40,872 nucleotides of DNA from an uncultured Chitinophagaceae bacterium (GTDB lineage Bacteria > Bacteroidota > Bacteroidia > Chitinophagales > Chitinophagaceae). Shown piece after piece: positions 795 through 31,056 of the stretch. The number at the start of each line of letters is the position of its first letter. The first letter of the stretch is position 1. The stretch covers positions 1 through 40,872 of the forward strand of contig CAIVCF010000226.1 of NCBI GenBank assembly GCA_903904335.1. Direction: 5' to 3'. The position numbers and the translations under genes were made by a program. The notes below the pieces were generated by a model. The model did no database searches, was not told the DNA's origin, and worked only from the letters and a program-made list of their open reading frames with translations.

Positions 795-1862
795 TCACCA
801 CAAACGTCTCGGGCAGCTGTCTCCGTATTTATTGCCCAATAAAAATCCAACGAGTATTTCGTGTGTTCCTTTACTTACGGTGTTTAATTGAGAAGTAGTA
901 ATATCGTAGGAATAACCGATATTGATATTGTTATTGATATTGATGCCTATCATGGCTGCGAAACCATCCTGGATTCGATAAGATCCGCCCACCCATAAAA
1001 GATCTAAGTATTGAAATTTTGCATTGATGTCAACACCAAGTGGTAATGGATTGATATAACGTAACAATACTGAAGGAAGGAAACTGATATCATCACTCAG
1101 CATCATTCTGTAACCTGCAGTTAAAAAAGTATGCGGCAGCAATTTACCGGTTTGCAATCCGACTGTATTGTTGGAGAAAGTAACATCTTCAGGAATGATC
1201 TGCTGAAAAGACAATCCTACAAAATAATCTTTTGAATACAACCATGCACCTGCACTGATATCGGGTTTTATTTTATTGATGATACCGCTGCCCGATACGG
1301 CGGGATCGACTGTTGTTGCAAAATTGAGTTTATCTGCATTTAAACTTAATTGCGAAATACCCGCTGAAATACCTACTGCCAAACTGGTTTGAACATTTAA
1401 ACTTAAGTGATAAGCATAAGTGCCGTAAGCAGTAAAACGATTCAAAGGCCCTGTTGCATCATTGATCACCGAGAAACCAACACCGGCATGAGGCTCAGGT
1501 GCTGTATACGTTTGCCAGTAGGCTTGTCCTCTCGGATTTTTTCCTTCCGGCCCAAATGTAGTGGCAGTCTGCCTTTCATCATAATCACTTTTATGAAGTG
1601 GCCCCTGGATGGTTAAATAAGTAGTGATAGGTGCATCTTGTAAACCTACCCATTGCAAACGATGGCTTGCTTTTACATCCCAATAATTTTCAATACCCGC
1701 AAGCGCAGGATTGATGATGTAATTGTTCATGATATATTGGGTATAATAGGGGCGTTGCTGTGCATTGGACGATAGACCAAATAACAATAAGAAAAAAACT
1801 ATGGAATATGTGAATCTTTTATTCAACCGACTGGTTTTTATTTTATCCTGAATTGCCGCCAC
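795..1862 (-). CDS. PorP/SprF family type IX secretion system membrane protein
   Basis: A 355-residue outer-membrane beta-barrel protein of the PorP/SprF family. A hydrophobic signal segment (SIVFFLLLFGLSSNA) precedes QQRPYYTQYIMNNYIINPALAG, the conserved start of the mature family proteins. Further family features are ASHRLQWVGLQDAPITTYL and the C-terminal NINIGYSYD followed by GTHEILVGFLLG. Such proteins are known partners of T9SS cargo; SprF, for example, is needed for export of the adhesin SprB. The gene lies 128 bp downstream of the giant PKD cargo gene on the same strand, the usual pairing, so I infer it serves that protein. The start is uncertain: 1862 is GTG, and a TTG near 1826 would also keep the signal peptide. 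Confidence 0.9.
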   Translation of the reverse strand: MAAIQDKIKTSRLNKRFTYSIVFFLLLFGLSSNAQQRPYYTQYIMNNYIINPALAGIENYWDVKASHRLQWVGLQDAPITTYLTIQGPLHKSDYDERQTATTFGPEGKNPRGQAYWQTYTAPEPHAGVGFSVINDATGPLNRFTAYGTYAYHLSLNVQTSLAVGISAGISQLSLNADKLNFATTVDPAVSGSGIINKIKPDISAGAWLYSKDYFVGLSFQQIIPEDVTFSNNTVGLQTGKLLPHTFLTAGYRMMLSDDISFLPSVLLRYINPLPLGVDINAKFQYLDLLWVGGSYRIQDGFAAMIGININNNINIGYSYDITTSQLNTVSKGTHEILVGFLLGNKYGDSCPRRLW

Positions 1863-1990
1863 AAGATAAGAAGATTAACGGATTGCGACGCAACGAAGAT
1901 ACCATGAGATTAAATTGCCGGTATTATAAACATTTTTCCAGAACATCTTTTAACATGGGTTTTTACTGAAACGAAATTCAGGATATAAAA

Positions 1991-4900
1991 TTATCTGATA
2001 ATGGTAATGGAGCCACTGATGACCGCCCTGCCATTTTTTGGATTGATAATATAATAATAGGTACCCACAGTTAAAGGTTGCCCGTTGATGGTTCCGTCCC
2101 ATTCTGTTTGATAACCGTTGGAATGAAACACAAGCTGACCATATCTGCTATACACATCAACTGTTGCACCGGGATACGTATCTAAGTATTTTATTTTCCA
2201 GGTATCATTGATACCATCACCATTAGGTGAAAATGCATTGGGCACCACAGGAGGGAATAAAACAAAAACACTTACCGTATCGTTTCTTGAACATCCTTCT
2301 TTTGTGCTTGCCGTAAATGTATAAGTTACATTAGATAGCGGAGAACATACAGGATTCAACACTGTATCGCTGTTGAGATAAGATGGCGGCGTCCACAAAT
2401 AATTCAAAGCACTATCAGTAACAACAGGTGTCAGGATATCACTCTTTCCCAACAGAATATATTTATCCGGTCCTGCATCCACATAGCTTGGCATTGGATT
2501 AACGGTTAATGTATCTGAAACACGAACAAGGCATCCCGGTTTAGATTGCACCAACAATGTAACAATATATCTTCCTGCAACTTTATATAAGAATGCTGTA
2601 TCCGGACTTATGCTAGTGGCATTATCAGGCGTTCCGAAAAACCATTTATATTTTAATGCCTGATTGAACTGACTGCCTGCAAGGCTTATTACATCACTTG
2701 CTAAGTTTACAATACTTGAATCGCAGAATGAATGTGCACTCACTTGTATTGTAGCGGCCAATGTATCCATCAATATCGGTGTGGTGGTATTAAATACAGA
2801 ACTGCAGCCACTGCTGTCTTTCAATACCAATGAAGGATAATAAATACCTGATTGCGGATAAAAATGCTGTACGATTGTATCTCTTGTTATTTGAACGGAA
2901 CCGTCATTGAAATCCCATGCATACGAAGAAGTATTTTTTAAAGAAGCAGATAAAGTAATGCTTGCAGGAGAGCATTTTTGATAAGCATCTGCACTGATCT
3001 TTGCATAAGGTCCTAATATGGTAATATACTGCAATGTTGAATCAACAACCCCGTTGATATATCCATATAATTTGATGGTATAAACACCGGGCTGATTGTA
3101 AGTATGGCTTGGATTCTGAACATTACCTGCAATACTGCCGTCACCGAAATTCCAACTGATGGAATCGGCATTCACGATCATTCCATTTGTATTTGGATAC
3201 ATCACCAATGGCGGGCAACTGTTACTGTCGATATAATTTGATTCATACGTAAAAGGCGTGTACATTTTGTTAACGGGTACATATTGAACAGATGTATCGG
3301 CACATTTATTGACGGAATCCCTTGCAATCAATGTTACCGTATCCAAATTGATATTATTGTATTTGTACACGACTTGTTTTGAAGAGGTGTCGGTATAATT
3401 ATTATTGCTGAAGGTCCATAAATAATTAAGCTTGGAACAATTAAAAGTATCGGATGTATTTAAAAATGTGGTAGGGATACCCGGATTAACCGGTGACGGA
3501 GACCATTGGAAATTTGCTTTGGGTCCGTAAATGATCATCGCTGTTGCAGCACCGGATGAAACTGCAGTGCATCCTCTGCTGTCAGTAACTTTTAGTGTTG
3601 TAACAAAATTGCCGGGCTTTAAATATTTATGTAGGATGGTGGCTGAATCGGCAACATACAAAACACTGTCATCACCAAAATTCCAAACCCTTTTATTGAT
3701 AGTTAGGTTTTTATTGATAGAGGAGGTATCAATAAAATTATAAGTTGACTGAAAACAACGGGAGGTATTAACGATCATAAAATCTGCTGAAGGACCTACG
3801 ATGGTAAGTGGAACAATATTAGTAGTATCCGTACAGCCAAAGTAAGTTGACTGAACAATGGCTCTCAGATCTTTTTTGTTGCTGTTGAGATTGGTCAATA
3901 TACTTGTATAAGTATCCGTCGGGTTATTGTTATTCGCAATAGAAGTTCCTGTAAAATCAGAGCCATCACCGTATTGCCATTTGAGTATCGTATAACCGTT
4001 TACAGATTGATAGGGATTGATAATTAGATTGTTTACAGTCAGCGCTAAAGAATCGCTGGCACAGGCTTGTGCCGTATTGCTATTTAATACAGGTTGTTGT
4101 TTCAATAAAACATAAACAGTGGCAGAATCAAATACTGTGCATGGCCCATAGCTCCCGGAGACCGTTACCTTGTATTTTCCGTTGCTTGTAAAATTATGTG
4201 TTACCTGTGTGGTGGAAGAAGGTGTTGTTTCAATACGCCCATCACCAAAATTCCAAATTGTTTGTGTAGTGTATTGCGAGGTTTGATAAAAGTTCACAAT
4301 ATCTCTGGCACCATCACAAGAATTGACAACATTGGTAATTTTTGTAAATGGCGGTAATACAGTTATGTTGTTGATCTTTCTTAAAGTATCACCACAACCG
4401 CCGTTGTAAGCAACTAATGTTACTGTAAAAGGACCTATTCCGGAATATTGGTGCGTAACAGATTGGTTATTGGATGAAATATCTGTAGCTGTATTATCAC
4501 CGAAATTCCAATACCATCTGTCTGAATTAATAGAATTACTTGTAAATACTATTGCTGTATTGCCGCAAACTTTAGCTGGGGAAATGGTATTGGCAGTATA
4601 AGAAAAATTGGCTGAAGGCTTTGAAATGACCGTGATGTTGTTGTTTAAAAAAATGGTTGCTGAACAACCGCTGATGGTAGTATAGGTAAGGCTTACAGGA
4701 TATTGTCCTATTTGATTATACGTATGTGTGGGTTGTTGTTGTGTGGAATTGAATCCATCTCCGAAATTCCAGGCGAAAGTTTTTATCTGGTCTGCATTGG
4801 TTGCAGCGAATGTTACTGTATATCCGGTGCAACCTCTGAACGCATCGTTGGAAGAGGGATTGATCGTATAGATACTGATAACAGGTTTTTGTATCGCCAA

Positions 4901-6220
4901 AGTTTGGGAAGCAGAAGCATTGCAACCTGCTTTGTCTGTTACCGTAAGATTGATCTGATAATTATTATTGGAAGCATAAATATAAGTTGGGGTTTGCACT
5001 GTTGAAACTGCAGTTGGATCATTTGCATTAAAGTTCCATAACCATTTTGTTGCTGTATGGCAGGTATCTCTGAATGAAATGATCGCTGTATCGCTGCAGA
5101 TAACATGCGAATTGATAATGAATCCGGATAATACAGGTGCCTGATTTACCACGATCGTTTTTTGTGCAGTGTCTTTACAAACGCCGTAGGTATTGATCAG
5201 TCTTGCCGTCAGGTTTCCGGGTTGAGAGAAAGTTTTGGAAACACTGTTGCCGCTGTAATTATTCAAATAATTATCTGCACTGAAACTCCATTGCGAAGAA
5301 GAAGGAATGACAGAACTATTATTTTGAAATGACGTATTTGTATTACTGCAAACAGGAGAAGTGACTGTAAAATCAGTATTGAAATCAGATACATTCACCA
5401 AACCTTTCATCGTTGAGATACCACTGCATCCGGCTACCGTTGGATCATTTAAAATCAATGAAACATCATAGATACCCTTTTGGGCATAAGTATGCGAAGG
5501 TGCTTTAAGATCAGAAACAGTGCCATCACCAAAATCCCACAAATAGTTTGCAACCTGATAAATAATATTCGCTGTTTTAAAATTTACTGATTGGGAAGGT
5601 TTGCAAACAATTGGTTTATCAACCGTAAATGATGCGTTCAAAGGCTGCAATGCTTGAGTGATATTGATTTTCTGTGCCGAATTCTGACAACCGTATGTGG
5701 TGGTAATGATCAATCTCGGATTCAGGTTTTGCGCTGTTGTGTAGGTATGAGAAATGGTATCTGTTCCTGAAACTGATTTGGTGGAGCCATCTCCAAAGTC
5801 CCAAAACAAACTCCTGATATTTCCGTCATTCGCCGTAGAGTTGCTGGTAAATATAACATTGAAAGGTGTACAGCCTTTTGATTTATCTACTGAAAAATCT
5901 ACGGTTGGTTTTTTATAAACACTGATTTGTAAACTTTTTGTTGCTGTTTGACCGCCATCGGTTACTGTCAGCGTAACTGTATATTCTTTTTCTTCAATGT
6001 AAGTAGCTGCTGCATTTAAAAATTGACTCGTTATATTATTTCCAAGATCCCATTTATAGATGGCATTGGCCGAGGCACCTGTTGTAAGATTTTTAAAGGA
6101 TACGATGTAGGGCGAACAACCACCTGTTTTACCATCAGATGTGGTAAAATCTACCGCTAATTGTGCCGAAACAGTAAGCGCATCAGCCACAAAAAATATA
6201 ATAAATATTATATTTTTCAT
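1991..6220 (-). CDS. Giant PKD-repeat surface protein with T9SS type B sorting domain
   Basis: A secreted protein of about 1409 residues. I chose the ATG at 6220 because it gives a clean signal peptide (MKNIIFIIFFVADALTVSAQ); an in-frame ATG ten codons upstream would put polar residues before it. The body is a string of about 14 PKD-type Ig-like repeats, each marked by a W-[DN]-F-G-D-G-like motif (WDFGDG twice, WNFGDG several times, degenerate WSFSAD, WNFNAND, WFFGTP), roughly one per 90 residues. It ends in a type B sorting domain (PNAFSPNGDGINDTWKI, then WDGTINGQPLTVGTYYYII). I see no catalytic domain, so an adhesin or matrix role is inferred. The probable partner, PorP/SprF, is encoded just downstream. 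Many paired cysteines suggest disulfides within repeats. Confidence 0.9.
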   Translation of the reverse strand: MKNIIFIIFFVADALTVSAQLAVDFTTSDGKTGGCSPYIVSFKNLTTGASANAIYKWDLGNNITSQFLNAAATYIEEKEYTVTLTVTDGGQTATKSLQISVYKKPTVDFSVDKSKGCTPFNVIFTSNSTANDGNIRSLFWDFGDGSTKSVSGTDTISHTYTTAQNLNPRLIITTTYGCQNSAQKINITQALQPLNASFTVDKPIVCKPSQSVNFKTANIIYQVANYLWDFGDGTVSDLKAPSHTYAQKGIYDVSLILNDPTVAGCSGISTMKGLVNVSDFNTDFTVTSPVCSNTNTSFQNNSSVIPSSSQWSFSADNYLNNYSGNSVSKTFSQPGNLTARLINTYGVCKDTAQKTIVVNQAPVLSGFIINSHVICSDTAIISFRDTCHTATKWLWNFNANDPTAVSTVQTPTYIYASNNNYQINLTVTDKAGCNASASQTLAIQKPVISIYTINPSSNDAFRGCTGYTVTFAATNADQIKTFAWNFGDGFNSTQQQPTHTYNQIGQYPVSLTYTTISGCSATIFLNNNITVISKPSANFSYTANTISPAKVCGNTAIVFTSNSINSDRWYWNFGDNTATDISSNNQSVTHQYSGIGPFTVTLVAYNGGCGDTLRKINNITVLPPFTKITNVVNSCDGARDIVNFYQTSQYTTQTIWNFGDGRIETTPSSTTQVTHNFTSNGKYKVTVSGSYGPCTVFDSATVYVLLKQQPVLNSNTAQACASDSLALTVNNLIINPYQSVNGYTILKWQYGDGSDFTGTSIANNNNPTDTYTSILTNLNSNKKDLRAIVQSTYFGCTDTTNIVPLTIVGPSADFMIVNTSRCFQSTYNFIDTSSINKNLTINKRVWNFGDDSVLYVADSATILHKYLKPGNFVTTLKVTDSRGCTAVSSGAATAMIIYGPKANFQWSPSPVNPGIPTTFLNTSDTFNCSKLNYLWTFSNNNYTDTSSKQVVYKYNNINLDTVTLIARDSVNKCADTSVQYVPVNKMYTPFTYESNYIDSNSCPPLVMYPNTNGMIVNADSISWNFGDGSIAGNVQNPSHTYNQPGVYTIKLYGYINGVVDSTLQYITILGPYAKISADAYQKCSPASITLSASLKNTSSYAWDFNDGSVQITRDTIVQHFYPQSGIYYPSLVLKDSSGCSSVFNTTTPILMDTLAATIQVSAHSFCDSSIVNLASDVISLAGSQFNQALKYKWFFGTPDNATSISPDTAFLYKVAGRYIVTLLVQSKPGCLVRVSDTLTVNPMPSYVDAGPDKYILLGKSDILTPVVTDSALNYLWTPPSYLNSDTVLNPVCSPLSNVTYTFTASTKEGCSRNDTVSVFVLFPPVVPNAFSPNGDGINDTWKIKYLDTYPGATVDVYSRYGQLVFHSNGYQTEWDGTINGQPLTVGTYYYIINPKNGRAVISGSITIIR

Positions 6221-6450
6221 AGCAAGACAGCTATTATGCATGAACCGCAAAAGTCGCTATTCATTTTTTATAGGATTGAATTATAGAGCCTTCTCTATTA
6301 CTTTGTTGCTTATTATTACATTATAAATGCTTTAATTTTAGTATATTAATTAACAACTAAAAGCATCCCTTTGTAGTAATAATAACGATAAGATAAGCTT
6401 TTTTGTTGCTTTGCTGCATGGTCTGCAAATAATAAACATCACATTCAACT

Positions 6451-18658: not shown

Positions 18659-19606
18659 ATGAAGAAAATTATTTTCTGTTACTTAATAACGATGACCGTA
18701 TTAAATGTAATGGCACAGCAAGCTGTAGTAGATAAGCTGAGAGGCGAAACATCCAGAACTATTAAAAAAGATACGGATACTACTGTTTGGAAGTGGAAGC
18801 AGGGCGGCTTATTAAGTTTTAATTTATCGCAGGGTTCTTTGAGCAATTGGGCTGCAGGAGGAGATGATTTTTCATTGTCAGTAAGTTCTTACTTCAATTA
18901 TTTTTTCTTTTACCGAAACGGCAGGCATAGTTGGGACAATAATATTGATATGAATATCGGTTACGTGCAAACAACAAGTTTGGGCAGCCGTAAGAATGAC
19001 GACCGTTTCGATTTTCTGAGTAAATATGGGTATAAGATGGATTCTGTAGGTAAATGGTATGTATCCGGTTTATTTAATTTTCGTTCTCAATTCTTTGATG
19101 GATATACTTATCCAAATGGTAATCCGGTATTTTCTTCTTCTGTATTATCACCTGCCTACCTTATTTTATCAGCAGGTTTTGATTATAAGCATAGCGATAA
19201 ATTTTCCATCTTCTTATCACCGCTTACATCAAGGACTGTTATTGTGATGAATCAATTTCTTTCTGATCAGGGTCAGTATGGCGTTGATTCCGGTAAACAT
19301 ACTCAAGCACAGTTGGGTGCTTTTGCAACGATCAATTATAATAATACTTTTAAAAAGATGTTGACCTATAAAGGAAGGGTTGATCTCTTCTCTAATTATT
19401 TACTCAATCCGCAAAATATCAATTTCTTTATGACCAATCAATTGGCTTGTAAAATATCAAAATATTTTTCAGTCACTTACAGTCTGGATATGATCTATGA
19501 TGATACGGTTGATTTGTTTGGTCCGAACGGAACATCACCTGCCCTGCAGGTGAAAAGCTTGGTGGGTATCAGTTTCCTGAAGCCATTGAATGTAAAAAAG
19601 AAATAA
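18659..19606 (+). CDS. DUF3078 domain outer-membrane protein
   Basis: A 315-residue protein with a signal peptide (MKKIIFCYLITMTVLNVMAQ) and the features of DUF3078: WKWKQGGLLSFNLSQGSLSN, then NWAAGGDDFSLSVSSYFNY, and WDNNIDMNIGYVQTTSLGSR. Alternating hydrophobic strands and an aromatic-rich composition throughout suggest a beta-barrel in the outer membrane. The family is common in Bacteroidota, and its function is not established. It is a monocistronic unit, convergent with the NTF2-like lipoprotein gene 20 bp downstream. Confidence 0.88.
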   Translation: MKKIIFCYLITMTVLNVMAQQAVVDKLRGETSRTIKKDTDTTVWKWKQGGLLSFNLSQGSLSNWAAGGDDFSLSVSSYFNYFFFYRNGRHSWDNNIDMNIGYVQTTSLGSRKNDDRFDFLSKYGYKMDSVGKWYVSGLFNFRSQFFDGYTYPNGNPVFSSSVLSPAYLILSAGFDYKHSDKFSIFLSPLTSRTVIVMNQFLSDQGQYGVDSGKHTQAQLGAFATINYNNTFKKMLTYKGRVDLFSNYLLNPQNINFFMTNQLACKISKYFSVTYSLDMIYDDTVDLFGPNGTSPALQVKSLVGISFLKPLNVKKK

Positions 19607-19626: not shown

Positions 19627-20172
19627 TTATTTTTTCTTCAGTGGTTCAGGAAATGCTCTTTGCTTTTCATTGTATTTTAAAATCTTTCCGTCTTTTACCA
19701 ATACATCATCTGTATAATAAATGGAATCGGTTTTTCCTTTTTTATCGGTCATCTTTTCTGTGTACCATAAAGTAACCCAGGTATCTTTTTTATGGGGATA
19801 ATATACGGTCATCCAGCTATCAAATTCTTTTGTTACGCTGACTGATGCATTGCGCATATCAGCAATTATTTTACTTAAGCTGTCCCTGCTTCCTTTAAAG
19901 TGAAACTTGTCAGCAATAAATTCTGCCGTATCTGCAAAATAAGCAGTGCAGCCTTTTATATCGCCGTCCACATATTTTTTTAAACAGTTTAATACAATGG
20001 CTGCATTCTTTTCATCACCCGGTTGCCAGTTGAGGGAATACTTTGCAGTAAAGGGAAATACGATAGAATCCTTTTTTACTTTGCTTTCAGTATCGGATGT
20101 TTCCGTTTTTGCTGCATTGTTACAGCTTATTAAAATGCAGCAGGCAGCAAGTAATGCTGAAAATAATTTCAT
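19627..20172 (-). CDS. Lipoprotein with NTF2/SnoaL-like fold
   Basis: About 181 residues from the ATG at 20172, which gives a lipoprotein signal peptide with lipobox LISC (Cys17, followed by Asn-Asn); the upstream ATG at 20202 adds ten residues without purpose. The mature part has an NTF2-like pattern: an initial helix (AAIVLNCLKKYVDGDIKGCT), then AYFADTAEFIADKFHFKGSR and beta strands such as WVTLWYTEKMT and DSIYYTDDVLVKDGKI. Polyketide-cyclase-like SnoaL proteins share this fold, but no catalytic residues stand out. It faces away from the remnant gene at 20442; the spacer between them holds the structured element. Confidence 0.7.
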   Translation of the reverse strand: MKLFSALLAACCILISCNNAAKTETSDTESKVKKDSIVFPFTAKYSLNWQPGDEKNAAIVLNCLKKYVDGDIKGCTAYFADTAEFIADKFHFKGSRDSLSKIIADMRNASVSVTKEFDSWMTVYYPHKKDTWVTLWYTEKMTDKKGKTDSIYYTDDVLVKDGKILKYNEKQRAFPEPLKKK

Positions 20173-20250
20173 GATATTCGTTTGGGAAATAAATATACTC
20201 AAAAAGTTTATTGCAATAAACTGCTATCAGTAAAACAACAGGAGATATGC

Positions 20251-20441: not shown

Positions 20442-21055
20442 ATGAAAAATTTTACTGCAACGATTGAAGTTGCGAACTCCCCAATAGCTATTTTCAATCA
20501 TTGAAGTTTACTGCCTCCGGTGGTAATACATTAAGAATTACATTGGTAAAGAATTCTGTTACAAACTGGGCTGATCAGTACTATATTCAAATACCTTTAG
20601 ATAATGCACAGAAAGATTATGCGATCGCATTGAACAGCTTGATTTCCGGAGCTTCAAATAATCATATCAATGCCGATGATATTACAACCATTGTATTTTC
20701 GGTAATTGCGGGTACAGGCCAAACAAAAACTATTAATACCACTTTCAGTAATATCAGCTTCACAAAAGCAGATCCAAGTTATATAGCTGCATTGAACTCA
20801 AAAGAAATACAGTTATATCCTAATCCTACTGTTGGTAAAACCTTCAACTGCAGTTTCTACAGCAATGCTGCACAACAGTTGACATTGCGTATAACAGATG
20901 TGATGGGAAGAAACATTGCCACCAAACAAGTCAATGCAATAGAGGGATTGAATATTGTTCCAGTAGAAATTCAATCATCAACCAAAGGAATACATATTGT
21001 AACGCTGGATGGTTCCGGTATTAAATACAATAGCAAAAAAGTGGTGCTCAACTAA
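20442..21055 (+). pseudogene. Remnant of a T9SS type A cargo gene, truncated and frameshifted
   Basis: An ATG at 20442 opens a short frame (MKNFTATIEVANSPIAIFNH) that stops at 20504. The next frame continues to 21055 without any ATG near its beginning; its first possible start is TTG at 20501, and the frame is closed upstream at 20465. Joining the two gives a continuous segment (IAIFNQSLKFTASGG) that reads like one protein domain, so a 1-2-base indel around 20491-20500 is likely. The longer part has a beta-sandwich-like segment (~1-95) and a type A T9SS sorting domain (LYPNPTVGKTFNC, then RITDVMGRN and a final KKVVLN). It lacks a signal peptide, so I call it a decayed gene. Confidence 0.65.
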
Positions 21056-21274: not shown

Positions 21275-22393
21275 TCAGGCAATCACTTTCAACAAATTTT
21301 TTATTGCATGAGCTCGGTGTACAAGATTAGTAAAATCTTTATGCAGGATGGTAACATGCCCCATCTTTCTTCCGGCTTTGGTTTGGTTCTTTCCGTATAA
21401 ATGCACGAAAACGTTTTCCATTTCCAAAACAGCATTCAAGCCCTCATATTTTGCATTGCCATTGTATCCCTCTTCTCCCAAAATATTCACAATGGCAGAC
21501 GGCATGATAGCAGCAGTATTTCCCAGAGGATATTGCAGCATAATTCTCCATAACATATCATACTGACTGCAATAATTAGCTTCAATGGTATGATGCCCGC
21601 TGTTGTGCACACGCGGAGCTGTTTCATTTACCCAGATATTTTCATTTTCATCCATGAATAATTCAACAGCAAATAAACCGGGGCTCTGTAATTCTTTGAT
21701 CACTTTTAAGGCAATCGCCTCAGCTTTCCAGTATGTTTTTTCAGGAATTTGTGCAGGTGAGATCTGATAATCCAATAAGTTTAAAACAGGATCAAATATC
21801 ATTTCAGCAGGAGAATAAACAGCAGTTTCGCCAAGGTCATTCATAGCAACGATCACTGCAATTTCTTTTCGAATGTTCACCATTTTCTCCAACACCGAAG
21901 CTGCATTAAACCCTTTATCGATGTGACTTTCATTCATGATCACCTGAACACCTTTCCCATCATATCCACCTTCAGCTATTTTATGAACAGCTGGAAAAAA
22001 TGAAGTGTAATTTGATAGATCAGTGCTATTTTCTGTGATAATGAAATCAGCACTTGGTATTTCATGCTGTTTATAAAACTCTTTTTGTTTGATCTTGTTT
22101 TTTATCGTTTTGATGGCAGATGGTTTGGGATAAATTCTTACACCTTCGCTTTCTAATTTTTCCAATGCTTCCACATTCACGCTTTCTATTTCGATAGTCA
22201 ATGCATCTAAATTTTTGCCGAATTCATAAACAGCATTAAAATCCCTGATATCACCTTCAACAAAATGATGGCATAAATGTGCAGCAGGGCAATTTTTATC
22301 ATTTTCCAATACATAGGTTTCCACCACATAATTTGCTGAAGCCTGCAACAGCATTCTTCCCAATTGACCGCCGCCTAAAATGCCAACTTTCAT
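21275..22393 (-). CDS. purK: 5-(carboxyamino)imidazole ribonucleotide synthase PurK
   Basis: About 372 residues from the ATG at 22393, which gives the family's N-terminus MKVGILGGGQLGRMLLQAS. An ATP-grasp fold follows: IKTIKNKIKQKEFYKQHEIP, AEGGYDGKGVQVI (ATP lid), VNIRKEIAVIVAMN and the active-site segment NETAPRVHNSGHHTIEA. PurK makes N5-CAIR from AIR, ATP and bicarbonate in purine synthesis. Its usual partner purE is not in this window. The spacer between its stop and the terminator at 21108 (~165 bp) holds nothing I recognise. Confidence 0.94.
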   Translation of the reverse strand: MKVGILGGGQLGRMLLQASANYVVETYVLENDKNCPAAHLCHHFVEGDIRDFNAVYEFGKNLDALTIEIESVNVEALEKLESEGVRIYPKPSAIKTIKNKIKQKEFYKQHEIPSADFIITENSTDLSNYTSFFPAVHKIAEGGYDGKGVQVIMNESHIDKGFNAASVLEKMVNIRKEIAVIVAMNDLGETAVYSPAEMIFDPVLNLLDYQISPAQIPEKTYWKAEAIALKVIKELQSPGLFAVELFMDENENIWVNETAPRVHNSGHHTIEANYCSQYDMLWRIMLQYPLGNTAAIMPSAIVNILGEEGYNGNAKYEGLNAVLEMENVFVHLYGKNQTKAGRKMGHVTILHKDFTNLVHRAHAIKNLLKVIA

Positions 22394-22592
22394 AGTAAAA
22401 TAATAAGTGGCGAAGATAATCATCGCAGTTGTTTTCAGGAATTATTAAAAGTAATGTTGAAAAGCCTTTTTAGCAGTAATTCGCAGAAATGAAACGTTAA
22501 ACACATAGGTTTTGCTTCAACCTGTAAATCTTCAGCATATTTTAAGCCCCTTTTTGAAGTCTGAATGTGATTAAATCAATATTTTTGATAGT

Positions 22593-23345
22593 ATGAGAGC
22601 CTTATTTTGCGCAATTGTTTTTCTGTCATTCTTCACAGGAGTGATGGCGCAAAATTCTTTTGTTGATTTTCAGAAAAATAATCCGAAAGTGGCACAGGTT
22701 TTTCAATTGAATAAAGACACATTACAAAAGCAGTTTGCGGCAGAGCATATTCAGTGGCCGCCGAAACAATTGTATCTGCGCAGTTTTAAATACGACAGTC
22801 AGTTGGAAGTTTGGGTAAGAAGCAGTAATAAAGAACCGTTTAAACTTTTTAAAACATATAAGGTTTGTGCATTGAGCGGAAGCTTGGGACCGAAGAGAAT
22901 GGAAGGAGATTATCAGGTGCCGGAAGGGTTTTATTATATCAACTCTTTCAATCCTAAAAGTGTGTATCATTTATCACTGGGAATTAATTATCCTAATGTG
23001 TCGGATGCATTGTTAAGTGATTCATTAAAACCCGGCGGAGACATTTACATTCATGGTAATTGTATCACAGTGGGTTGTATTCCGGTAAAAGATAATCAGA
23101 TCGAAGAATTGTATTTGCTTGCATCATACGCAAAAGATAACGGAGAAGATTTTATTCCCGTTCATATATTTCCGGTTCGATACAATAATCCTAAGAGTTC
23201 CGAATTCCTCGTGAAAACCACCAAAGACGATCAGGAGTACCAACACTTTGCTGCACGCATCAAAGAAGTGTACGACTATTTTGAACAACACAAAAAATTG
23301 CCATTGATCTCGGTCAACAAAAAAGGCGATTATGTTGTGTTGTAA
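22593..23345 (+). CDS. L,D-transpeptidase family protein (YafK-like), exported
   Basis: A 250-residue protein with a signal peptide (MRALFCAIVFLSFFTGVMAQ) and a YkuD-type catalytic domain. The motif GGDIYIHGNCITVGCIPVKD has the histidine and cysteine of the HG-x5-GC-type active site. Before it are VYHLSLGINYPNVSDALLSD and the substrate-side segment KVCALSGSLGPKRMEGDYQV. YafK-like members remodel peptidoglycan or its links to proteins in the periplasm; which bond this one acts on cannot be read here. It precedes the hybrid kinase gene by 38 bp on the same strand. Confidence 0.88.
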   Translation: MRALFCAIVFLSFFTGVMAQNSFVDFQKNNPKVAQVFQLNKDTLQKQFAAEHIQWPPKQLYLRSFKYDSQLEVWVRSSNKEPFKLFKTYKVCALSGSLGPKRMEGDYQVPEGFYYINSFNPKSVYHLSLGINYPNVSDALLSDSLKPGGDIYIHGNCITVGCIPVKDNQIEELYLLASYAKDNGEDFIPVHIFPVRYNNPKSSEFLVKTTKDDQEYQHFAARIKEVYDYFEQHKKLPLISVNKKGDYVVL

Positions 23346-23383: not shown

Positions 23384-25594
23384 ATGAGGTTATTAACAAG
23401 ATCTAAATTGTCGGGTTCCAATATATTGCTGCTATGCATTTGCTTAGTGGTGATCGTTTCCATTTTGTTGATGAATGTATTGAACACGCGTAATCTCACA
23501 GCATTGCGTTCTTCCATCGACACTTTATCCAAACCCAATACAACAATAGGCATATTGCATAACACCAATCAGGAATTGTTGGTGGCAGAAAATAAATTCA
23601 GGATGTACTTAAGTACCGGTGATTCGGTTTATAAAGATCAGTTTCTCAGTCATCTTAACCACACCATTACTAATCTTGAATTGGTACAACATACCGAAGA
23701 CAGTTTGGAGATCACACAAATTCTTTCGGGCTTAGGAAAAAAAATTGAATTGGCAGATGCGATCAGTAAATTAAAACATCTGGCAGATTCTGTTTCTACA
23801 AAATTGAATACAGTGAAAATAAATTCTGTGTTCGCAGAACCTATTAGAGTAGAAAAAATAAATACTTCCATTTTAAAGAAATATTATGTGCATACAACTG
23901 ATACTGTTAAAGCAGTTGCACAGAAAAAGGGATTCTTTAAAAAATTAGGCTCACTGTTTTCCAATAAGGATAACACGAATTATAAATACATAAAAAGCGA
24001 CAGTACTGTTACGGCAGAAGCAGACAGTGTGAATAATGAAATGGAAGCTACTTTGAATAATGCTTCACTCGACATTCAGAAGTTTTATCAGGGATCAATA
24101 AACAGGGAATTACAGCTCAGGGAAAAGATGAATGAAAGTGAAAAAGACCTGGCAGAAACAAATCTCTCCATCATCGATCAACTCAACAGTGCGTTGAATA
24201 TAGTATTGCAGAAAGAAGAACAAAAGGAGCTGAGCAGTAATAATACAGCGATACTCAACGCTGTTAATGCAAGAAACAGTATTCAAAACCTTTCTTGGGT
24301 TTCTTTTGTGATCATCATGATCATTGTAGTGATTCTGATATTCAATATCCGCCGCACCGCACGGTATTAAAAAGACATTCTTGAGGCAAGGGAAAGAGCA
24401 GAGAAATTGGCACTGACCAAGACCCGTTTCCTTAATAACATGAGTCATGAAATACGTTCTCCTTTAACTTCTATCATGGGCTTTACAGAACAATTAGAAA
24501 GTAATGAGTATGATGAAGAAAAGAAAAAATACCTGAATGCCATCCGCTCTTCATCAGATCATTTACTGCATACCGTAAACGATGTACTCGATTTTTCTAA
24601 ATTAGATGCAGGTAAATTAATGCTTGAGCATGCAGCTTTCAATATTCACAATACGATCGAGGAAGTGATCTATTCTTTTTCTGTGAATGCTGACAAGAAA
24701 GGTATACAGTTAAACAGCAATTTACAGATTGAAAAAGAGATACGTGTGATGGGTGATGAATTCCGTCTTCGCCAGATATTGTTTAATCTTACGGGAAATG
24801 CGATCAAATTTACTTCTAAAGGAAGCGTGACTATTACGGCAAGTGCATTATGGAAGAATGAAACTGAAATGATTCTGAAAGTGGAAATATTAGATTCAGG
24901 AGTCGGTATTCCGCATGATCAGTTAGATTTGATATTCGAAGAATTTGCACAGGCAACAAATAATAAGATTGACGGCCGAAGATCCATTCGCGGTACCGGT
25001 TTAGGGTTGCCGATTTGTAAAATGCTGGTAGAAATGCAGGGCGGTAATATTAATGTGCAGAGTGAAATAAATAAAGGATCTTTATTCACTTTTGAAATTC
25101 CTTATACAGTGGCAACTGAAAATGATATTAAACCTGCTGCTCAAAAATCAGCAGCAAAATCAACTGCAGTACCTTCATCAGCAGAGCCTGCTTTCTTCTT
25201 TGGTAAGAGAGCATTAGTTGTGGAAGATAATGATATGAACATCATGCTGCTTTCATTATTGCTTAAAAAATATTTTATTGAATTTGATGTTGCCAAAGAT
25301 GGTGAAGCAGGATTGGAATTATTCAATTCAAAAAATTATGATATTGTATTAACGGACATCAATGTCCCTAAATTAACAGGTGATCAGTTGGCTGCGGCTA
25401 TCCGCAGATCTGAAGACTCTGTGAAAGCAAATCTGCCCATCATTGCATTAACGGCAAGTATTGTGGCAGATGACCTTGATTCTTATTTACGTACCGGCAT
25501 TGATGATATCATGATCAAACCTTTTAAGGAAGCTGATTTCAGTGCCATGTTAAGAAAGTATCTGGATAATAAGATCGGGGCATCTATTGCATAA
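23384..25594 (+). pseudogene. Hybrid sensor histidine kinase split by an in-frame TAA
   Basis: One continuous frame, 23384-25594, is interrupted only by TAA at 24368-24370. The part before the stop (328 residues) has a membrane helix (ILLLCICLVVIVSILLMNVL), a ~260-residue helical periplasmic sensor region of CHASE3-like character, a second helix (VSFVIIMIIVVILIFNI) and RRTARY. Directly after the stop the same frame continues with KDILEARERAEKLALTKTRF, the normal linker. Then come HisKA (MSHEIRSPLTSIMGF), HATPase with an N box (FNLTGNAIKF), DSGVGIP and GTGLGLPICK, and a receiver domain with ALVVEDND, the phospho-acceptor Asp in IVLTDINVP, and MIKPF. Both halves look intact apart from the one stop, so it is a recent nonsense mutation, a sequencing error or a readthrough site. 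Confidence 0.75.
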
Positions 25595-26851
25595 TCATCT
25601 GAACAAAGCCTGAACGGTTTCATTGGTTTGTTGCATCAACATCACTTCTTTATTGATCAGCATTTTGTTTACTAATGTTTCGTTGTAATGACGGATGCTT
25701 AGCAGGCTTAACCCTTTTTCAACTTGTACATCAAAAATAGTATCGGCTGCTAAAGCTAATCTTTCAACTTTATCAGAATAATCATCAATACAAACCTGCA
25801 CATGAATGGCGCCGGTTTGGATAAGATTAGGTTTGATTCTTAATTGTGCAAAGATTTCATAAAGCATAGCCATTGGTTTCTCCCCGACAAAGGAATAATC
25901 CCTGCTTTCTAAATGGATCAATGCCTGTTGTTCTTTTAAGACAATAATGGGAGGTAGGTTTTTGTTATGCTTTTTATGAATAATGGTCCCTGCTGCGGAA
26001 GGATCTGTAAAACACTTTACGTGCAAAGGGATCCCTTTATTCTGTAAGGGTTTGATGGTTTTTGGATGTATCACCTGTGCACCGTAATAGGCCATTTCTA
26101 TTACTTCATCATAACTTAATTCATTGATCAGTTGTGCATCAGGAAAAATTTTGGGATCTGCATTCATCACACCTTCCACATCTTTCCATATCGTAACCGA
26201 TTCTGCATTTACAATATTGGCAAAAACAGCAGCAGTATAATCACTGCCCTCTCTTCCCAAAGTAGTGCTTTCATTTTCATCTGTGGCACCAATAAAACCC
26301 TGTGTGATGCTGATATTATTTAATGAGGTAAAAGATAATTGATCAATCGTGGTTTTGGTTCTTTCCCAATCAATGTTAGCGTCTCTGAAATTATTATCGC
26401 TACGAATGATGTCACGTACATCAAGCCAGTTATTTTTTATACCTGATTCATTCAGATAATGACTGATGATGCAAGTGCTCAATAATTCCCCACAGCAAAC
26501 GATCTGATCATAATAATAATCAAACTCCCGAACGGGTTTATCATGCAGCAACCATTCCACTTCTGTAAAAAAATCCATCAGCTGCGAAAGACATTGATTA
26601 AAATTTTTGACCAATAAATATTTAGCAGTATTGAGATGTTGTTTTTTTACAACATCGAATAATTGTAAAGCTTCTTCTTTTTTTTCGGCATAAAAAGCTT
26701 CTGCCACTTTCTCCAAAGCATTGGTGGTCTTTCCCATGGCAGAAATAATGATGATCAATTTTTCATCTTTATATTGTTGCAGGATAGTTGCGAGATTTTG
26801 AATCCGCTCCACATTGTTTACAGCAGCGCCGCCAAACTTAAAAACTTTCAT
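25595..26851 (-). CDS. lysC: Aspartate kinase
   Basis: A 418-residue monofunctional aspartate kinase. The N-terminal kinase domain begins MKVFKFGGAAVNNVERIQNL; the motif is KFGGAAV rather than the commoner KFGGTSV. TTLGREGSDYTAAVFANIV and IWKDVEGVMNADPKI are the nucleotide- and substrate-binding segments, followed by LSYDEVIEMAYYGAQVIHPK. Two ACT-type regulatory segments fill the C-terminus (~300-418; SRDYSFVGEKPMAML and QTGAIHVQVCIDD). It starts the aspartate-family amino-acid and diaminopimelate pathway. It is convergent with the split kinase; the two stop codons abut with no bases between them. Confidence 0.92.
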   Translation of the reverse strand: MKVFKFGGAAVNNVERIQNLATILQQYKDEKLIIIISAMGKTTNALEKVAEAFYAEKKEEALQLFDVVKKQHLNTAKYLLVKNFNQCLSQLMDFFTEVEWLLHDKPVREFDYYYDQIVCCGELLSTCIISHYLNESGIKNNWLDVRDIIRSDNNFRDANIDWERTKTTIDQLSFTSLNNISITQGFIGATDENESTTLGREGSDYTAAVFANIVNAESVTIWKDVEGVMNADPKIFPDAQLINELSYDEVIEMAYYGAQVIHPKTIKPLQNKGIPLHVKCFTDPSAAGTIIHKKHNKNLPPIIVLKEQQALIHLESRDYSFVGEKPMAMLYEIFAQLRIKPNLIQTGAIHVQVCIDDYSDKVERLALAADTIFDVQVEKGLSLLSIRHYNETLVNKMLINKEVMLMQQTNETVQALFR

Positions 26852-29400: not shown

Positions 29401-29928
29401 ATGTCAAACGATCCGCGTTATCCGATTGGTAAGTATGAAGCCAAAGCATTTTCCAATGAACTGAAAGAACAATGGTTATTGGATATTAAATTTTTGCCTG
29501 AAGAATTGGAATTGGCTGTAAATAATTTAGATGAATTTCAATTGAACACGCCTTACCGCGAAGACGGTTGGCAGATAAAACAATTGATTCATCATATTGC
29601 CGACAGTCACATGAACGCTTATATCCGATTTAAATTGGGATTAACTGAAACGAATCCAACCATCAAACCTTATGAAGAAAAAGAATGGGCTAAAACCACA
29701 GACAATGAAACAGTGCCGGTAAATGTTTCATTAACATTATTGCATGCATTGCATCAGCGCTGGTATGCAGCCATAAAAGATTTGACGGAAGATCAGTTTG
29801 AAAGAACAGTTGTTCATCCCGAGCACGGAAGGGTAATGAGTTTATGGTTTTTATTGGGTTTGTATGCATGGCATGGTAAACATCATGTGGCGCATATTCT
29901 TACACTCAGAGAAAATAAAGGATGGTAA
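29401..29928 (+). CDS. YfiT/DinB-superfamily metal-dependent transferase
   Basis: A 175-residue protein of the DinB fold, YfiT type. Family landmarks are the start DPRYPIGKYEA, the segment REDGWQIKQLIHHIADSHMN with the first metal-ligand histidine, and the C-terminal WHGKHHVAHILTLRE with the other two. YfiT-like enzymes are annotated as metal-dependent thiol (bacillithiol-type) transferases or hydrolases; the thiol used here is not known. The stop shares a base with the ATG of the first Nudix gene, so the genes are translationally coupled. Confidence 0.85.
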   Translation: MSNDPRYPIGKYEAKAFSNELKEQWLLDIKFLPEELELAVNNLDEFQLNTPYREDGWQIKQLIHHIADSHMNAYIRFKLGLTETNPTIKPYEEKEWAKTTDNETVPVNVSLTLLHALHQRWYAAIKDLTEDQFERTVVHPEHGRVMSLWFLLGLYAWHGKHHVAHILTLRENKGW

Positions 29929-30491
29929 TGGCAAGAGAATTGAAATGGAAGACCCTTTCATCAAAACAATTGCTCAAAGATAAATGGACAGATGTAAGGG
30001 CTGATGTTTGTCAGCGCCCCGACGGAACGATCATTGAACCTTTTTATGTATATGGATTTCCCGATTATACTTGTGCAGTTGCTATTACTAAAGATGGAAA
30101 AGTTATTTTAGAAAGAATTTATCGGCATGGGTTAAATGTTATCGCAACAGAATTGCCCGGTGGTTGTGTTGATAAAACTGACAGTAATGCAACAGAAACC
30201 ATAGCAAGAGAATTGTTGGAAGAAACAGGCTATCGTTTCGAGAAGATCGAATTTTTGGGAAACAGTTCTGCAAATCCAACAACGACTAACAATCTGATGC
30301 ATATGTTTTTGGCAACTGGGGGTGAATTTGATGCTGTACAGGAATTGGATAAGGATGAAGATGTAGAAGTTATATTAGTTTCTCTGGATGAATTTATAAA
30401 AATGACGAAGGAAAATAAATTTATTCAATCCATGCACATGACGGCAATATTTTTAGCCTTACAAAAATTGGGAAGAGTTACCATTCAATAA
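29928..30491 (+). CDS. Nudix hydrolase, first of a tandem pair
   Basis: About 187 residues from the ATG at 29928, which overlaps the previous stop as TAATG and gives MARELKWKTL, matching the start of the next gene; an ATG two codons earlier is also possible. The catalytic half of the Nudix box is intact (RELLEETGY, residues 94-102). The first half is irregular: after LPGGCVDKTD the spacing to the arginine is one residue longer than normal and the usual Glu is Asp or Ser. The fold otherwise fits the ADP-ribose pyrophosphatase-like group. It is probably a paralogue of the gene downstream, cotranscribed with it and with the YfiT-like gene. Confidence 0.82.
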   Translation: MARELKWKTLSSKQLLKDKWTDVRADVCQRPDGTIIEPFYVYGFPDYTCAVAITKDGKVILERIYRHGLNVIATELPGGCVDKTDSNATETIARELLEETGYRFEKIEFLGNSSANPTTTNNLMHMFLATGGEFDAVQELDKDEDVEVILVSLDEFIKMTKENKFIQSMHMTAIFLALQKLGRVTIQ

Positions 30492-30498
30492 ATATTGT

Positions 30499-31056
30499 AT
30501 GAGAGAATTGAAATGGAAAGTATTGTCAACAAAATATGTGTATGAAAACAAATGGTTTCATGCAAGGGCTGACAGTTGCGAATTACCGGACGGAAGATTA
30601 ATTGAACCTTATTTTGTGGTAGAGGTCCCGAATTTCTGTAATATGGTTATTGTTACAAAAGAGGAGAGGGTTATTTTGGTGAGGCAATATCGTTATCCTG
30701 TTGATCAGATTACTTATGAATTGGCCGGAGGTGTAATAGAAAAAGGAGAGGACCCTGCAAAAGCAGCAGTAAGAGAAATGGAAGAAGAAACAGGATATAC
30801 TTCTGATACGATCGAATATTTAGGTAAAGCTGCTGCCAATCCTGCATTGATGAATAATACAGCTTATTTTTTTCTGGCGAAGAATGCTATTAAGATCGAA
30901 TCACAAAATTTAGACGCCTTAGAAGATATTGATGTGGTTAGTTTTTCAAAAGAAGAATTCATTCAATTGCTTCAGGAAAATAAATTACAGCACGCTGTGC
31001 AGTTGGGTGCCGTATATGAAGCTTTGATCAAATTAGATTGGTTGCAATGGAAATAA
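30499..31056 (+). CDS. Nudix hydrolase, second of a tandem pair (ADP-ribose pyrophosphatase-like)
   Basis: 185 residues. The Nudix box is canonical: Gly78, Glu84 and REMEEETGY (92-100), fitting G-x5-E-x7-RE-U-x-EE-x-G-U. The preceding VILVRQYRYPVDQITYELAG is typical of NUDT5/NudF-like enzymes that cleave ADP-ribose or other nucleoside diphosphate sugars. It shares the frame WK-x-LS-x-K, KW-x6-D-x-C, PDG-x-IEP and ANP with its upstream neighbour, only 7 bp away, which points to tandem duplication. It ends 5 bp before the stop of convergent folC. Confidence 0.9.
   Translation: MRELKWKVLSTKYVYENKWFHARADSCELPDGRLIEPYFVVEVPNFCNMVIVTKEERVILVRQYRYPVDQITYELAGGVIEKGEDPAKAAVREMEEETGYTSDTIEYLGKAAANPALMNNTAYFFLAKNAIKIESQNLDALEDIDVVSFSKEEFIQLLQENKLQHAVQLGAVYEALIKLDWLQWK

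Follow-up and report, generated by a model that had tools for sequence, protein, structure and literature searches.

A single in-frame stop codon in an otherwise intact hybrid histidine kinase gene of an uncultured Chitinophagaceae bacterium

We analysed a stretch of 40,872 nucleotides (the window; contig C226) from an uncultured Chitinophagaceae bacterium, in which the gene for a membrane-bound hybrid histidine kinase is divided by one in-frame stop codon. The locus comprises the following features:

22593..23345, + strand: protein with a YkuD (L,D-transpeptidase catalytic) domain; upstream neighbour, adjoining the kinase gene in 6/7 relatives' loci
23384..24370, + strand: upstream half (328 aa), up to and including the in-frame TAA (ORF scan and translation)
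24368..24370, + strand: in-frame TAA, at the place of a glutamate codon in 7/7 aligned orthologues
24371..25594, + strand: downstream half with linker, HisKA, HATPase_c and receiver (Pfam), 407 aa, stop codon at 25592-25594
24407..24409, + strand: TTG, first possible alternative start, within the linker (scan for in-frame ATG, GTG and TTG)
24440..24442, + strand: first in-frame ATG after the stop, an internal methionine adjoining the H box; methionine in 7/7 orthologues
25595..26851, - strand: amino-acid kinase family protein, convergent downstream neighbour, matched in 6/7 relatives' loci

The ATG at 23384, the TAA and the terminal stop share one frame, and a scan of that whole frame (23384-25591) returned the TAA as its sole stop. 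This reproduces, at the same coordinates, the observation in an earlier note on this DNA that the frame runs unbroken from the sensor (23384) to the receiver (25594) but for the TAA at 24368. Translation likewise gave the flanking residues described there, RRTARY and KDILEARERAEK, and places the stop where the second membrane helix joins the linker. The frame does not shift, as the earlier note had said in excluding a homopolymer indel, and the alignment is free of gaps over the 80 columns printed about this position, which gives no support to a compensated indel. Downstream of the stop the frame stays open for 407 codons; given a G+C content of 37% in the window and three strong Pfam domains, chance is not a reasonable account of it. 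Where the relatives have one gene, gene callers would probably list two here: one for a sensor of unknown function, the other for a soluble hybrid kinase.

The downstream half contains HisKA (PF00512, 1.7e-21), which starts at residue 17 and has the H-box pattern, HATPase_c (PF02518, 3.7e-25) with the N, G1 and G2 box patterns, and a C-terminal receiver (Response_reg, PF00072, 9.7e-20) with the receiver motif patterns including the acceptor aspartate; the H, N, G1, G2 and receiver motifs are named and defined here in their usual sense. This half matched 20 distinct sequences of solved histidine kinases at E <= 1e-20. The best of these, 6qrj_A (annotated 'Hybrid kinase', E 4.8e-53), covers residues 21-250 of the downstream half; like the other solved histidine kinase cores it matches the kinase core only, and is uninformative on the stop. 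No close second copy was found in the same assembly, where the next best match is 35% identical and none of the other 24 matches exceeds 37% identity. Two paralogue matches with apparent internal stops (C74 and C69) seem to have been aligned beyond the natural ends of their genes.

The upstream half had no match in Pfam. It begins with an N-terminal hydrophobic stretch, followed by about 270 residues predicted to be mostly helical and a terminal hydrophobic stretch, a putative membrane topology that we read from the sequence by eye. A structure model of this half is all-helical and of low confidence (mean pLDDT 60.7), and none of the 421 matches of the fold against the PDB reached E <= 0.001; a McpS ligand-binding domain appears among the matches listed (50 of 421, all with E > 0.001), amid many unrelated helical proteins. 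In the alignment of relatives, the upstream half has its orthologues in the N-terminal region of intact kinases. When it was searched in 59 genomes, 51 gave no match, and the eight that did were the window's own genome, four of the same genus and three weak matches at family level, the last in open frames of 711-762 aa. The four same-genus genomes returned no stop in the matched sensor part, one of these matches being partial at a contig end.

A scan of one genome per species yielded nine loci, seven of which (L018-L024) were aligned; L025 and L026, at 34% identity, were excluded as too distant. The aligned loci belong to related Bacteroidota, mostly Chitinophagaceae, with metagenome-assembled genomes that, for the named relatives, presumably come from a published lake dataset, and they are 62-88% identical to the window in the kinase half. 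By these relatives, the window belongs to the Chitinophagaceae. The contigs of L018-L021 are apparently those of G003, G004, G002 and G001, respectively, with lengths agreeing in all four and contig numbers in three, so the sensor-half search and the nine-locus scan are not independent. Six of the seven orthologues hold the whole gene as one open frame of 727-745 codons, and in all six sensor and kinase form the continuous polypeptide that the TAA interrupts in the window; L018 is truncated by a contig end yet covers the stop site and is open there.

All seven aligned orthologues carry a glutamate codon in the stop column and none carries a stop. It had been proposed that a single T-to-A change would turn the TAA into a lysine codon; with glutamate in every orthologue, lysine is unsupported as the ancestral residue. 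The earlier note had also counted two separate genes at this place in related genomes as evidence against its reading, and the seven relatives instead cross the site in one open frame. A long-established, fixed division into two genes that work separately would fit with both frames still being open, but none of the seven orthologues is split and no insertion lies at the site, and we regard such a split as scarcely credible. Judged from these alignments, the seven open orthologues, found at a locus with common neighbours, are the intact counterparts expected of a nonsense pseudogene or loss-of-function allele.

The kinase gene shares neighbours with its orthologues. The YkuD gene lacks a match only in L017, whose contig ends there. 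The convergent gene, which we take more finely to be aspartokinase-like, is matched in part in L015 and L022 and unmatched in L024; FBPase and purK were each matched in five of the seven relatives' loci compared. The contigs of L015 and L017 end early, and L024 has the YkuD gene as its sole common neighbour. In the window, about 1.67 kb with two ORFs (19627-20202 and 20501-21055) separates the DUF3078 gene (18659-19606) from purK (21275-22423), the second ORF bearing a type IX secretion sorting tail, whereas in L016 the same two genes lie about 0.5 kb apart, which points to an insertion or deletion between species.

Several other observations concern the surroundings. The roughly 6 kb past purK in one relative (L014:7544-13545, G004) matched none of the 22 queried window ORFs (from 17067-38635, E <= 1e-10), a hint that this edge has been rearranged. 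Two adjoining genes at 29922-31056 of the window, the first encoding a NUDIX protein, each match the other's counterpart in L016 and L017 at 37-43%, which suggests that a tandem duplication has been retained across species. Directly after the hybrid kinase of L024, a stretch (L024:7345-7722) is 52% identical to the receiver of the window kinase and is possibly a separate response regulator. At 795-6250 of the window, a PorP/SprF gene adjoins one for a PKD-domain protein of 1419 aa that carries a CHU_C type IX secretion signal.

Selection on the two halves was estimated from substitution rates. Pairwise dN/dS against the two closest relatives was 0.05-0.06 in both halves (L018 covering only the sensor end), with dS above 1 in most pairs and hence synonymous changes near saturation. 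For the kinase half, the window branch gave a dN/dS of 0.059 (bootstrap 0.031-0.103, 985/1000 replicates usable, synonymous sites near saturation), and the sister branches 0.060 and 0.043 (the L018 interval being uselessly wide, from 0.021 to the set limit of 9). A second triple with L021 as the third sequence, itself weak, returned 0.075 for the window (interval 0.031-0.518, 920/1000 replicates usable), 0.035 for L019 and 0.122 for L021. In the sensor half the branch test yielded no estimate because synonymous changes were saturated (371/1000 replicates usable, interval from 0.031 to the set limit of 9). The window has 11 private amino-acid changes in the sensor and 14 in the kinase half, and L019 has 12 in each.

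We infer from these data that selection maintained the kinase half during most of the time since this lineage split from its sisters. No relaxed selection was seen after the stop, in what is a crude test with synonymous sites near saturation, and this again speaks against an old split. A kinase-half dN/dS as low as in the sister branches implies that the stop either arose very recently, does not occur in the living population, or is bypassed. On the sequences compared, the probable alternatives are a very recent origin and a stop that the organism does not carry.

Bypass would mean that the stop is real and tolerated, with partial readthrough, or restart at TTG 24407 or ATG 24440, producing some full-length or free kinase beside the sensor-only protein. 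In favour of this, the kinase half is intact and constrained; however, no tRNA with anticodon tta, cta or tca occurs among the 37 found (an incomplete set, with for example no tRNA-Ile named), TAA is the commonest terminator in the window (24/40 listed ORFs, some of them weak, or 23/39 without the disputed one), and the stop is conserved in none of the seven orthologues. As a separate observation, a low-scoring and unusual-looking tRNA at L064:101-173 was called Ser by ARAGORN, with anticodon act.

As for restart, the earlier note had placed the first ATG after the stop at 24440, inside HisKA, and our scan agrees (residue 24, with HisKA from residue 17). It was also right that initiation there would lose the linker. 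A possible start precedes this ATG, the TTG at 24407. A purine-rich stretch lies before that TTG, but the stretch is nearly identical in L019, where the frame is unbroken and no TTG is present, and it is therefore no sign of a new start; TTG also occupies this column in three of the seven orthologues, whose frame is unbroken there. The ATG at 24440 corresponds to an internal methionine in all seven, and a start there would drop the first HisKA residues along with the linker. Across tRNAs, terminators, orthologues and candidate starts we found no evidence of readthrough or restart, and we think it improbable that either rescues the kinase. More improbable still is a stop that is real and advantageous, giving a sensor-only membrane protein plus, by restart, a low-level, free and sensor-independent kinase-receiver, which if true would rewire a phosphorelay kept in one chain in the relatives examined. 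Among the explanations offered in the earlier note, strain-level mutation and assembly or base-calling error both stay live, while readthrough finds no support in the tRNAs, the TAA usage or the orthologues.

The stop may instead be a consensus error, or a base from a minority strain taken into the assembly, with the gene intact in the population. The assembly is fragmented (3.11 Mb in 261 contigs), all nine loci from named genomes are, by their titles, metagenome-assembled, and the source genome (G000) probably is as well. PMC8121793 describes lake metagenome-assembled genomes obtained with Illumina and Megahit. Sample names hint that the window, too, comes from a lake. Assuming 90% coding sequence, and with 4.9% of single-base changes in the listed window ORFs creating a stop (5499/111150), the expected number of stop-creating errors per genome is 0.14 for an error rate of 1e-6 per base, 1.4 for 1e-5 and 13.8 for 1e-4. 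About 1.4 false stops are thus expected in such a genome if one base in 100,000 is wrong, so a single stop needs no biology; consensus errors by themselves could produce a lone stop in an assembly. The low dN/dS in both halves also fits an intact gene.

On the other side, the assembly looks clean. None of 82 domain matches from three families (26, 17 and 39; six of the 39, the ABC family, being below the family cut-off, and two of the 82 lying within the window) carries a stop, and for 17 of the 22 queried window ORFs a single open frame in a relative aligns with over 95% of the ORF's length, a count that includes both halves of the kinase gene (15/20 without them). Of the other five ORFs, one is partial and two are unmatched, all three at or beyond the ends of the fetched loci, and the remaining two (those between the DUF3078 gene and purK) are lacking in L016, in which the genes on either side lie close to each other. 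Nothing at the stop site itself points positively to an error. Recent nonsense alleles are common in bacterial genomes, and for this reason we place a real allele ahead of an assembly error, in a ranking of low resolution: an error is a serious though less probable explanation, while a recent nonsense allele of the conserved hybrid histidine kinase in the sampled strain is the one we favour, with modest confidence.

A recent nonsense allele would have arisen very recently in the sampled strain. Translation would end just past the second membrane helix and leave a sensor with neither kinase nor receiver, so that the strain would lose this phosphorelay or keep it at a strongly reduced level. Any product initiated at TTG 24407 or ATG 24440 would be a soluble fragment severed from the sensor. 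If the stop is real, the strain would have lost one sensor, an ordinary kind of strain-level change.

In conclusion, a point stop in a conserved hybrid kinase is an ordinary finding, whether it reflects a recent loss in one strain or an error in the consensus; a literature search on this locus returned nothing usable. The orthologous membrane-bound hybrid histidine kinases (L018-L024) have sensor, linker, HisKA, HATPase_c and receiver in the same order as the window copy, which differs from them in its single in-frame stop. Point-nonsense pseudogenes and strain-level loss-of-function alleles are well known in bacteria. The window stop, unlike those alleles, is known from assembled sequence alone, but it resembles them in being one apparently recent stop within an otherwise intact, conserved gene.
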